Assembly (NCBI GenBank): GCA_029054485.1
Contig: JAIDFD010000273.1
Coordinates: 1-14,537, forward strand
DNA from: Clostridia bacterium
GTDB lineage: Bacteria; Bacillota; Clostridia; Christensenellales; Borkfalkiaceae
DNA length: 14,537 nucleotides
Reading direction: 5' to 3'
Shown: positions 10,998 to 14,537 of the stretch, piece after piece
How positions within the stretch are numbered: the stretch's first letter is position 1
How the letters are laid out: every line of letters begins with the position of its first letter
Notes under the pieces: generated by a model
The model's database searches: none
What the model was told of the DNA's origin: nothing
Seen by the model: only the letters and a program-made list of their open reading frames with translations
Made by a program: the position numbers and the translations under genes

Positions 10998-11006
10998 ACC
11001 CTTAAA

Positions 11007-11095
11007 CCTATAAAGAGTGTGCGAGAGAACGGCTCGTTGACCACACAGCAACCTGCATTGCAAGGTGCTAACGCCGCGTCCTATGGGAAATATAA
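11007..11095 (+). ncRNA. SAM-I (S-box) riboswitch aptamer
   Basis: The conserved core is present: AAGAG (11013-11017) at the entry, AGCAACC (11047-11053) and AAGGTGCTAA (11062-11071). P2 is GTGTG/CACAC (11017-11021 with 11042-11046) stacked on CGAG/CTCG (11022-11025 with 11033-11036), with a UUGAC bulge where the S-box kink-turn belongs. The P2 loop AGAACGG can pair its CGG (11030-11032) with CCG (11074-11076) in J3/4, the expected pseudoknot. P3 is ACCTGC/GCAaGGT (11051-11056 with 11060-11066), and P4 is a short TCC/GGA. P1 looks weak (TATA with TATA). It lies between a consensus promoter and a terminator ahead of a metK operon. Bound SAM should favour termination. Identification is by motif and context; no covariance model was run. 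Confidence 0.85.
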
Positions 11096-11106
11096 AAACG
11101 TAACTT

Positions 11107-11136
11107 ATCCCGTTCGGCGCGAACGGGATTTTTTTT
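11107..11136 (+). terminator. Riboswitch expression platform: intrinsic terminator
   Basis: A 10-bp perfect stem (11107-11116 with 11120-11129) has the loop GCG and runs into eight T's. Its 5' arm contains CCGTTC (11110-11115), the complement of GAACGG (11027-11032) in the P2 loop of the aptamer. That pairing is a candidate antiterminator, available only when the aptamer is unfolded. This predicts an OFF switch in high SAM. Confidence 0.88.
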
Positions 11137-11146
11137 AGGAGAAGTT

Positions 11147-11608
11147 ATGATTACGGAAATTACTATCGGCAAAATGCAAGATAGCGATAAATGCGATTAT
11201 TTTGAAATGTCGCGCGAATTTTATTCGCTGGGCGTTACCAACTCGCAAATTACCGATGAAGGACGCGATTGTTTTTGGAAAGAAATATTGAGCGGTGAAA
11301 TCGTCAAAGCCTACATACTTCGTTGCGGCGGCGAAACTGCGGGTTATGCAATCTGCGCCCTCTCCGCCTCTCAGGAGGCGTGCGGCAGAGTGCTTTGGCT
11401 GGACGAGCTATACGTTAAACCGCAATTCCGCGGCTTAGGCGTAGCAAAACATTTTTTTAAATTTATAGAGCAGGGCGGCGAATATAAGTTTGTGCGTTTA
11501 GAAGTTGAGCTAAATAACGATAAAGCAACCAAGCTATACAAGTCGCTCGGTTATAAAGAAGTCAAATATCTTCAACTTTACAAAAAGACAAATCAATCTG
11601 AAATATGA
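11147..11608 (+). CDS. GNAT family N-acetyltransferase
   Basis: A 153-residue acetyl-CoA-dependent acyltransferase fold. The acetyl-CoA pyrophosphate loop is QFRGLGVA (93-100), preceded by the motif A strand LWLDELYV (83-90). Motif B is LEVELNNDKATKLYKSLGY (118-136), typical of GNATs that modify small amines or protein N-termini. The substrate cannot be told from sequence. It is the first gene after the SAM riboswitch, with AGGAG 5 bases before the ATG, and metK starts 9 bases after its stop. It is therefore under SAM control and may act in a SAM- or methionine-linked step, but that is only guilt by association. Confidence 0.9.
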   Translation: MITEITIGKMQDSDKCDYFEMSREFYSLGVTNSQITDEGRDCFWKEILSGEIVKAYILRCGGETAGYAICALSASQEACGRVLWLDELYVKPQFRGLGVAKHFFKFIEQGGEYKFVRLEVELNNDKATKLYKSLGYKEVKYLQLYKKTNQSEI

Positions 11609-11617
11609 GGAATTAAA

Positions 11618-12778
11618 ATGAAAAAATTATTTACAAGCGAAAGCGTGACCGAAGGTCACCCTGACAAACTTTGCGACAACATTTCGGACGCTATCGTGGA
11701 CGAAATTTTCAAGGCAGATAAAAACGCGCGTTGCGCGGTTGAGTGCTGTGCGGCATACGACAGACTTTTGATTATGGGCGAGGTCACTACCACCGCCGAA
11801 GTCGACTACGAAAAAATCGCGCGCGAAACTATAAAAAGAATAGGCTACACATTCGGCTCGTTCGCATACGACAAATGCAAAATAATGGTTGCAATCCACA
11901 CCCAAAGCTCCGACATCGCTATGGGCGTTGACAACTCTTACGAAAATAAAGAAGGCGGCGCGCCCGAAGACGTATTAGGTGCGGGCGACCAGGGTATGAT
12001 GTTCGGATATGCCTGCCGCGAAACAGAAGAACTTATGCCCCTACCCATTTCGCTTGCGCATAAACTTGCGATAAGGCTCACCGAAGTGAGAAAGTCAAAT
12101 CTTCTGTCCTACCTCCGCCCCGATGGAAAAACACAGGTCACTGTGGAATACAACGGCAAAAAACCAGTGCGAATAGATACCGTGGTTGTTTCAGCCCAGC
12201 ACGATGAAAAAATCTTGCAGGAACAACTGAAAGAGGATATAAAGACGAACGTAATAAGCGTTCTTCCTAAAGAGCTTATCGATGGCGACACAAAGTATTT
12301 CATCAACCCCACGGGAAGATTTGAAATCGGCGGACCCGAGGGCGACAGCGGACTTACCGGCAGAAAAATTATTGTGGACACATACGGCGGCAGGTGCGCG
12401 CACGGCGGCGGAGCTTTTTCGGGCAAAGACCCCACAAAGGTTGACCGCTCGGCGGCGTATATGGCAAGGTACATATGTAAAAATCTCGTAGCCGCAGGAC
12501 TTTGCGATGAGGTGCAGTTGCAGGTGGCTTACGCTATCGGCGTATCCCGCCCCGTTTCCGTGTTCGTGGATACCTTTGGCACAGGCAAGCTGAGCGATAG
12601 CGAAATCGCCGATATAGTGACCTGGGAATTTGATTTACGCCCCTACTCCATTATCGAAAAACTGGGTCTGCGCGCCTCCGTTTACCTTCAAACCGCGGCG
12701 TACGGACACTTCGGCAAACAGGGCTTGCCGTGGGAAAGACTTGACAAAGTTCAGGATTTGAAAAAATATTTAAGATAA
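11618..12778 (+). CDS. metK: S-adenosylmethionine synthetase
   Basis: Makes S-adenosylmethionine from methionine and ATP in the cytoplasm. At 386 residues it is the normal family length. Signatures are [13 protein letters not shown] (8-20, with the catalytic His14 and metal-binding Asp16), [12 protein letters not shown] (121-132), GDSGLTGRK (242-250) and the phosphate-binding [19 protein letters not shown] (263-281). All look intact. The start is set by GAGGA 7 bases upstream. It is the second gene of the riboswitch operon, so its product represses its own transcript. The comF-type gene begins 3 bases after its stop. Confidence 0.98.
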
Positions 12779-13517: not shown

Positions 13518-14183
13518 ATGTATACTGTAGATTTTTTAGGTACAACGCAAATTTACTTACAGAGTGAATCAGAGCTTATTTATAAAACGGTGCAAGAAAA
13601 ACCTGTAGGATGGTGCATTTGCGATTTGCACTTGTATTATCGCGATGGATCTGAAGAAACAAAAAAACTTGATTTTGATTTTTCTTGCTTTATAACACTT
13701 TCAAAAGATAACAAGTATCTGTTTGTTGCGACTGGAGAAAAACGATATATCATGTGCTATAAATTGAGCGACATGTCTGTTGTATGGAAAGTTAAAATCA
13801 AACATGATATCGGACCAATGCATTTTTGTAGTGATAAGTTATATTGTCGATGTTATAACGGGATTCATATCTATGATGCAAAGAACGGAGATTTTATTGA
13901 TAAGTTGCGGGCAACATCTTGCGATCAAATTTTTTCACTTGGCTGTAGGTATTTATGCTTGCTCTTCGGCGGACGTTTAAGAATATACGATATGGTGGAA
14001 AGCAAATATGTCTATAAAACGCAATATTTCAAAAGAGAAGACGACTATGCTTTGATGTATGTGATGGATCAAACGGAAGAGACAACAACAGTTAAATTTG
14101 CATATGGTAAGTCTTTAGTGCCGGGCGGAGAGCGTGAGGAGACCGCAATAATGTTTAAAATTAAGGATTTTTGTCTGCATTAA
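13518..14183 (+). CDS. Uncharacterised beta-propeller-like protein
   Basis: No family is recognised with confidence. The 221 residues show a repeating beta pattern like WD40/quinoprotein blades: CFITLSKDNKYLFVAT (57-72) with KLSDMSVVWKV; SDKLYCRCYNGIHIYDAKNG (105-124); CRYLCLLFGGRLRIYDMV (143-160). Three blades are visible, fewer than a closed propeller needs, so it may pair with itself or be a shortened relative. There are nine cysteines and no signal peptide, and it is probably cytoplasmic. It starts one base after the comF stop with no good ribosome binding site, so it is the last gene of the riboswitch operon by position. Its codons are clearly more AT-rich than those of metK and comF, which hints at later acquisition or weak selection. 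No terminator follows it. Confidence 0.7.
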   Translation: MYTVDFLGTTQIYLQSESELIYKTVQEKPVGWCICDLHLYYRDGSEETKKLDFDFSCFITLSKDNKYLFVATGEKRYIMCYKLSDMSVVWKVKIKHDIGPMHFCSDKLYCRCYNGIHIYDAKNGDFIDKLRATSCDQIFSLGCRYLCLLFGGRLRIYDMVESKYVYKTQYFKREDDYALMYVMDQTEETTTVKFAYGKSLVPGGEREETAIMFKIKDFCLH

Positions 14184-14256: not shown

Positions 14257-14285
14257 TTGACTTTAATAATTTATTGCTGTATAAT
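14257..14285 (+). promoter_or_regulatory. sigma-A promoter of the tRNA-Ser transcript
   Basis: TTGACT (14257-14262), a 17-base spacer and TATAAT (14280-14285). The start should be near 14292, about 12 bases before the first tRNA-like repeat. No terminator lies between it and the tRNA-Ser gene, so the two repeats should be part of the precursor RNA. Confidence 0.8.
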
Positions 14286-14303: not shown

Positions 14304-14389
14304 GGAGAGATGATGCGGTAAGCGCTTCGCGCTTCGGTGCGACGAATGCTCCGCATTCGCCCGCTCCCCTACTAAAACTTAATATTTAT
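14304..14389 (+). repeat. tRNA-Ser-derived structured repeat, copy 1
   Basis: An 86-base unit that begins with GGAGAGATG, the tRNA-Ser 5' end, but has lost bases in the D-arm part. It then has a hairpin AAGCGC-TTC-GCGCTT (14320-14334), a second hairpin CGAATGC-TCC-GCATTCG (14343-14359) and CCGCTC (14361-14366), closing GCGG at 14315-14318. An AT-rich spacer follows (14371-14389). It is related to copy 2 along its whole length. It is not a working tRNA: there is no anticodon arm and no 3' acceptor strand complementary to GGAGAGA. Confidence 0.85.
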
Positions 14390-14480
14390 GGAGAGATGGC
14401 AGAGCGGTAAGCACTTTCGTGCTTCGGTTCGACGAATGCTCCGCATTCGCCCGCTCCCACAACTAAAACTTAATATTTAT
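14390..14480 (+). repeat. tRNA-Ser-derived structured repeat, copy 2
   Basis: A 91-base unit whose first 19 bases (14390-14408) are identical to the start of the tRNA-Ser gene at 14481. Together with the 19-base AT-rich spacer before them they form a 38-base exact direct repeat (14371-14408 and 14462-14499). An insert hairpin AAGCAC-TTTC-GTGCTT follows (14409-14424), then CGGTTCGA, the hairpin CGAATGC-TCC-GCATTCG (14433-14449), and CCGCTC (14451-14456) closing GAGCGG (14402-14407). The predicted shape is a three-way junction. It lacks an anticodon arm and cannot be a normal tRNA. Confidence 0.87.
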
Positions 14481-14537
14481 GGAGAGATGGCAGAGCGGTC
14501 GAATGCGGCGGTCTTGAAAACCGTTGATGGGCAACTA
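14481..14537 (+). tRNA. tRNA-Ser(UGA), 3' end cut by the window edge
   Basis: Starts GGAGAGATGGCAGAGCGGTC, a typical bacterial tRNA-Ser acceptor and D-arm. The anticodon stem GCGGT/ACCGT (14508-14512 with 14520-14524) encloses the loop CTTGAAA, with anticodon TGA at 14515-14517, which reads UCA and other UCN codons. The window ends inside the start of the long variable arm typical of serine tRNAs. The 3' acceptor strand, T-arm and CCA are not visible. Confidence 0.93.

Follow-up and report, generated by a model that had tools for sequence, protein, structure and literature searches.

Two tandem units lie upstream of the tRNA-Ser(UGA) gene at the end of the window (the whole stretch analysed, which is one entire contig of 14,537 bases, G000:C194, from a 1.46-Mb draft genome in 297 contigs); both are partial copies of that tRNA in which a hairpin insert, hereafter B, occupies the D-loop position and is followed by inverted copies of tRNA arms, the whole being laid out as a three-way junction. 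The reading that we prefer, and to which we give about an even chance, is that B is a REP-like palindromic mobile element residing in tandem partial copies of structural-RNA genes, where it would be kept or renewed by a process acting on DNA.

Unit 2 (14390..14480, 91 nt, on the forward strand, as is every part of both units; covariance model R1, E 6.1e-25 in its own genome) is the complete version of the unit 1 design. It opens with a 19-nt exact copy of the tRNA-Ser(UGA) 5' end (14390..14408), which includes the left arm GAGCGG, and continues with B (14409..14432), a 24-nt block made of the hairpin AAGCAC-TTTC-GTGCTT and the linker CGGTTCGA that occupies the place of the D-loop, with GGT before it and CGA after it. 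The right arm CGAATGC, the loop TCC and inverted copies (GCATTCG and CCGCTC) of the tRNA D-arm region come next (14433..14456), and the unit closes with an AT-rich spacer containing AAACTTAATATT (14459..14480), similar to which are the AACTTAATAT-type leaders found directly 5' of tRNA-Ser in many relatives, with or without units. Since the hairpin CGAATGC-TCC-GCATTCG is joined by a CCGCTC that complements the GAGCGG of the unit's tRNA part (with one C sitting before it), the 3' half repeats the tRNA's own GAGCGG-CGAATGC in inverted form. Unit 1 (14304..14389, 86 nt; R1 E 1.8e-20 in its own genome) starts with a shortened tRNA-Ser 5' copy (14304-14319) that matches the tRNA for 9 nt and has then lost bases, followed by the hairpins AAGCGC-TTC-GCGCTT (14320-14334) and CGAATGC-TCC-GCATTCG (14343-14359), joined by the linker CGGTGCGA (14335-14342), and by the closing arm CCGCTC (14361-14366) and a spacer. 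The two units share a 19-nt 3' end, ACTAAAACTTAATATTTAT; in the B stem they are told apart by a whole-pair change, with AAGCAC/GTGCTT in unit 2 and AAGCGC/GCGCTT in unit 1. In general, B is a 23-27 nt hairpin insert consisting of a variable stem and CGGTACGA. The earlier note had placed two tandem units starting as tRNA-Ser at 14304 and 14390, the second exact over 19 nt, and this layout is confirmed; what escaped it was that B is a separate insert and that the tRNA's own arm recurs, inverted, as the 3' half of the unit.

The tRNA-Ser(UGA) gene is represented in the window by its 5' part, 57 nt on the forward strand (14481..14537) that are identical to the start of complete genes in relatives, such as that of locus L003. 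Because the contig ends inside the tRNA, neither ARAGORN nor Rfam at the gathering score calls it, and at a lower score Rfam returns a weak tRNA match cut at the 3' end. Ahead of both units, also on the forward strand, is a sigma-70-like promoter site, TTGACT-17-TATAAT, scoring 11/12 (14257..14285). Shuffled versions of the promoter region yield 1.1 sites of this kind, so that the window site is weak on its own; a promoter-like site of 11/12 also precedes the first unit at 12 unit-bearing tRNA-Ser(UGA) loci of relatives, and the scores ahead of tRNA-Ser(CGA) loci are only 6-10. With no terminator-like site found in the window, the picture of a promoter-like site without a terminator-like site stands. 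The units would probably be co-transcribed with the tRNA and removed during its maturation. A regular expression used in a survey of leaders missed B in L004, L009, L026 and L036 (which it classed as 'copy') and in L011, and its class tallies were not used. Elsewhere in the window, a SAM riboswitch (RF00162) lies upstream of genes for a GNAT acetyltransferase and S-adenosylmethionine synthetase (11005-12778), and a 221-aa open reading frame without a Pfam match at E 0.001 (13518-14183) separates the tRNA-Ser leader from a gene that is named comF-like after its Pfam match.

The recurrence of the units in relatives, and not their folding energy, lifts them beyond chance. Folding is modestly better than in shuffled sequences (z of -2.0 for unit 1 and -2.9 for unit 2). 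At minimum energy, unit 2 folds into a three-way junction that contains both hairpins and in which GGC/GCC and GG-GAG/CTCCC pairs take the place of the GAGCGG/CCGCTC closing helix of the hand-made model; unit 1 folded alone gives a single long imperfect hairpin. In the 50 distinct matches aligned, the junction is 94.7% paired, against 28-40% in slid controls, a figure to be read with the model having been drawn up manually, on the basis of the GAGCGG/CCGCTC arms and the two palindromes, and with the alignment having been fitted to, and thus biased towards, that model. Helix 2 is 99.3% paired in these matches and has double changes at 5 of its 6 pairs; such changes occur at 1 pair of helix 1 and at 2 pairs of helix 3. 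Shuffles never reached the observed paired share, number of double-change cells or score (0/500 for each), and matched the count of double-change pairs in 8/500 cases; the number of pair types, matched by 88/500, is not above shuffles. Left unconstrained, the RNAalifold consensus of 24 units pairs GTGCTTCG with CGAANGC and GCGG with CCGC and does not contain helices 2 and 3; its alternative pairing has double changes in 1 of 11 pairs. The two-hairpin, three-way-junction design proposed in the earlier note is borne out, helix 2 covarying in relatives.

A blastn search with the region gave a match in 75 of 101 genomes, many through the tRNA itself. Model R1, built from 24 units, matches 33 of the 93 genomes of the genus at E up to 0.01, a set that includes a chance match in G120 (no tRNA nearby) and one to tRNA-Ser itself (G008:C10); the unit stands ahead of both tRNA-Ser(UGA) and tRNA-Ser(CGA). 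These blastn and R1 matches rule out a purely local feature, and the several copies with conserved folds that had been named as support for a functional element are present in relatives. Across an order sample of 248 genomes, R1 was found under stricter filters in 4, all of the same genus, and in no other genus; the genomes named in that sample include 10 from other genera of the family, and 224 of the 248 are not named individually. An exact insert pattern run over the GTDB genome collection returned 28 stretches, all from Clostridia or Eubacteriales MAGs, the hosts being tRNA-Ser (14), tRNA-Arg (4), tmRNA (8) and a REP-like repeat (1), with one lacking a host gene nearby; the same single exact pattern had no match in viral contigs. 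A looser pattern gave 27 matches in 18 genomes and none with the reversed control; two of the matches, L049 and L056, are not near a tRNA and appear accidental. Rfam has no match to the units at the gathering score, which sets aside the described Rfam RNAs (riboswitches, T-boxes and others); relaxing the cutoff to E 5 brings up the cut tRNA, two sub-threshold hits, to snoZ101 (E 0.86) and mir-230 (E 4.1), and nothing else. Literature searches on repeat letters, tRNA copies, palindromes and truncated tRNA repeats returned no description of the module in titles or the opening of abstracts.

B, with the same linker, is not confined to copies of tRNA-Ser (UGA and CGA). Partial copies of tRNA-Arg(CCG) carry it, inverted, in their anticodon loop; these copies lie upstream of the true gene in G039, G048, G020 and G104 and downstream in G010, and form a tandem array of five 84-bp units in G039. 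It is likewise inverted in partial copies of the 3' end of tmRNA that directly follow tmRNA genes (Rfam calls tmRNA at 7 of the 7 such loci tested), with an array of at least 3 units in G006; both the gene and a terminator-like hairpin precede the tmRNA units. G010 carries B in the loops of GTCATTCCGAGCG..CGAGGAATC REP-like repeats, and in several of these the loop of B itself holds another such repeat. In G048, a tRNA-Ser copy downstream of the true gene has B in its D-loop and other inserts in the anticodon-loop and T-loop positions. Across all fetched loci, distinct copies of B number 40 in tRNA-Ser, 10 in tRNA-Arg, 12 in tmRNA, 7 in REP-like repeats and 11 elsewhere, the classes being set by flanks, with the right-hand CG part of the pattern, the left end also part of the matching rules for the three gene classes, a mixed left flank in the remaining class and one plain mis-parse there (L123). 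Because the matching rules prescribe the junction ends, the basis of the GT^CG rule is not these counts but the native gene sequences at the three gene hosts, which read GGT^CGA, GCGT^CGGAG and GAGT^CGGGAC. Stems are typical of each host, with AAGCCC in 11 of 12 tmRNA copies and AAGCC in 7 of 7 copies in REP-like hosts. The exact 13-mer CTTCGGTACGACG occurs 1-8 times per genome in 29 of the 93 genomes, 64 matches in all compared to 6 for the reversed control, some of them in coding sequence; in G000, at one mismatch, only the two units and one other place match the 13-mer.

Conservation at orthologous loci was assessed in two neighbourhoods, one with the comF-like gene as in the window (8 loci) and one with a gene that, judging by its motifs, we take to be radC-like (11 loci). 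Among 43 pairs drawn from 14 unit-bearing loci, identity outside the tRNA part is 67-92% for the units; in the same pairs, the adjoining ortholog has only 31-61% identity at its four-fold sites and 49-72% at the protein level. Unit similarity does not rise with four-fold-site similarity (Spearman -0.46 and -0.09, pooled -0.23, none significant). The B unit is absent upstream at 2 of the 8 comF-type loci (L014 and L015) and at 3 of the 11 radC-type loci (L016-L018), shares that are not unbiased frequencies because the loci with units were fetched for matching. The units also resemble their own neighbour: in 38 of 41 units (C-G in 22, T-A in 16), the adjacent true tRNA exactly predicts base 16 of the tRNA part together with its 3' partner, with 9 of 50 rows unscorable and the three remaining units showing one other base and two gaps, and the D-arm base follows the adjacent tRNA in 33 of 41. 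Seven units have a neighbour that departs from the usual bases of its isoacceptor, and five of them follow it at base 16, the other two being gapped there.

These comparisons bear directly on the suggestion that the units are decayed tRNA duplicates, present only here and decaying freely. That just partial tRNA sequence is left and that unit 1 has lost bases would fit duplication debris, to which we now assign a very small probability; conservation well above that of the neighbouring four-fold sites and covariation contradict it, the same two observations exclude a neutral tRNA pseudogene, and since relatives carry a conserved module beside several tRNA and tmRNA genes, the units are not decaying debris.

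The main rival to the preferred reading is that the junction is a selected leader RNA, made with the tRNA precursor and released by RNase P at a tRNA-like 5' end, that modulates the processing or expression of tRNA-Ser, with analogous roles for tRNA-Arg and tmRNA. We consider this possible but doubtful. It would account for units conserved at orthologous loci far beyond the four-fold sites, for covariation in each of the three helices, for the complementarity of the 3' arms to arms that track the neighbouring tRNA, for stems characteristic of the host gene, and for a promoter-like site upstream with no terminator-like site in the window; it is harder to reconcile with the patchy distribution (33/93 genomes), with tmRNA units placed beyond the gene and its terminator-like hairpin, and with B being inverted relative to transcription in the tRNA-Arg and tmRNA copies, where the conserved linker would therefore be a different RNA. 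Compensation at the RNA level would be expected to leave more G-U pairs than are seen in helix 2, where 283 of 286 cells are Watson-Crick, 1 is G-U and 2 are mismatched. From these sequence patterns, a mobile or DNA-maintained palindrome seems favoured over a selected RNA, because B occurs in both orientations relative to transcription and in repeats unrelated to tRNA, and because its stems change by whole pairs with almost no G-U and the arms mirror the neighbouring gene.

On the reading of B as a REP-like palindrome in gene copies, the units would be truncated extra copies of the tRNA-Ser(UGA) 5' end, with B in the D-loop, amplified in tandem between promoter and tRNA. B would enter hairpin-forming loops at the GT^CG step in either orientation; near structural RNA genes it is found only in partial copies, presumably because insertion into a sole working gene would be lethal. 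A DNA-level process, which we infer to be template switching or conversion at the palindrome, would keep the direct and inverted arms identical to the neighbour and cause stems to change as whole pairs, and unequal recombination would let arrays grow and shrink. A more specific proposal, a tRNA-anchored mini-cassette, is tentative and has a clearly lesser chance: an 84-111 bp module beside tRNA-Ser, tRNA-Arg or tmRNA, in which the hairpin lies between arms copying the target in direct and inverted form, would be programmed by, and match, its own neighbour. Of the earlier note's interpretation, which is supported in part, the guess of a small mobile or replicating repeat that uses tRNA starts appears to have been right. 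The few B copies per genome count against a mobile reading. Host-typical stems are more in keeping with prolonged residence at a given site than with repeated re-insertion, and as no tRNA-Ser palindrome without B was found with the pattern tried (0/93 genomes), insertion into a pre-existing target is not seen for tRNA-Ser. No recombinase or transposase linked to B was found. Y1 (IS200/RAYT-type) transposases occur in 28 of the 93 genomes, and as mover of B this family is not supported, being present in just 3 of the 33 R1-matching genomes and not found in the window genome.

The closest likeness among described repeats is to the CGTC REP super-family, small palindromes with an unpaired CGTC at one end, some of them inside larger palindromes, for which no dedicated transposase is known (Di Nocera et al. 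2013, PMC3733652). As defined there, these have an unpaired CGTC (or TGTC/CCTC) end, a stem 8-9 bp long whose first and second positions are A and T, a loop of 4-5 nt and a short tail that is mostly CCA, and are dispersed in many copies per genome (PMC3733652); the paper gives them for five other phyla, and its text does not contain the terms Firmicutes or Clostridi. Read in reverse, B starts with CGTCGTACCG (the CG at that end being part of the search patterns) and likewise sits within palindromes. Unlike these REPs, it has a stem of GT..AC plus 5-6 pairs AAGCNC/GNGCTT with a 4-nt bulge in place of AT..AT, loops mostly of 3-4 nt, no CCA tail, and what seem to be few copies per genome, placed in partial tRNA or tmRNA copies. 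B therefore resembles CGTC REPs in end motif and palindromic setting but falls outside their stem and tail definitions, and it differs from RAYT-mobilised REPs in that a cognate Y1 transposase was not found in G000. Short repetitive hairpin elements, double hairpins among them, with substitutions in their loops, are described for intergenic regions and rRNA genes of sponge mitochondria (PMC2800124). These elements differ in being organellar; in the present case it is the stems that vary, with compensation, and each copy mimics a neighbouring gene.

In the rtT repeats of the E. coli tyrT operon, a fragment from the 3' end of a tRNA is reportedly repeated downstream of it and transcribed together with it. 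They share with the present units a tRNA fragment and transcription along with the tRNA, which is predicted here; they differ in that the units carry the tRNA 5' end, lie upstream, contain an inserted covarying hairpin and are spread across a genus.

Partial copies are also found near other tRNA genes, among them tRNA-Pro, tRNA-Ser(GCU) and tRNA-Arg(ACG) in G000 and tRNA-Tyr, tRNA-Val and tRNA-Ser(UGA) in G048. By an exact 14-mer within 500 nt, which misses degenerate copies such as those of tRNA-Arg(CCG) and tRNA-Ser(CGA) in G048, 3 of 13 distinct tRNAs scored in G000 (16 loci) have one nearby, as do 3 of 31 in G048 (30 of 39 matched places). Read by eye, several such copies have hairpins in loop places, some with inverted pieces. 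In the partial copy upstream of tRNA-Arg(ACG) in G000 (L078, C207), a structured insert of ~115 nt separates the D-arm from the anticodon arm and finishes with an inverted repeat of tRNA sequence, CCAAAGGC-GA-GCCTTTGG; L011 has a similar insert ahead of tRNA-Ser. Copies of tRNA 3' ends lie downstream of tRNA-Pro and tRNA-Ser(GCU) in G000 (L076, L082) and of tRNA-Tyr and tRNA-Val in G048 (L205, L208), some paired with inverted copies and with GC-rich hairpins in the T-loop position, and an inverted 3'-end copy follows the tRNA-Ser terminator hairpin in L020, L025 and L053.

Such copies, some with hairpins in the anticodon-loop or T-loop place, together with perfect palindromes and few intermediates, would be expected if the units were a by-product of replication, in which repeated fold-back template switching renews inverted partial copies and B is a favoured hairpin with no dedicated element behind it. 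This we judge improbable, as it leaves unexplained the recurrence of the linker CGGTACGA and of the GT^CG position across genes and repeats.

In G004 and G050 (L006 and L010, also L042 and L043), the B units are separated from the true tRNA-Ser by a 37-nt tRNA-Ser copy and, after it, ~230 nt containing TTTCTACAA repeats, together possibly an integration-site remnant. tRNA and tmRNA genes are classic integration sites, and this stretch would suit the view that the units are scars, or attachment-site remnants, left by site-specific integration of larger elements; that none of the CTTCGGTACGACG copies examined was seen to belong to a larger element bounded by B, and that viral contigs did not match the one exact pattern used, make this view very unlikely.

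The change of the palindromes by whole pairs, with almost no intermediates, makes maintenance at the DNA level as against the RNA level directly testable, within the framework of a REP-like palindrome in gene copies as well as outside it. If selected as RNA, the units would be a leader or trailer module of tRNA and tmRNA genes that is, as far as our searches show, undescribed. If B is mobile, it would be a very small element that enters copies of structured RNAs without destroying the gene and whose flanks track that gene, and would offer a clean natural system for studying how REP-like repeats spread without a known transposase.
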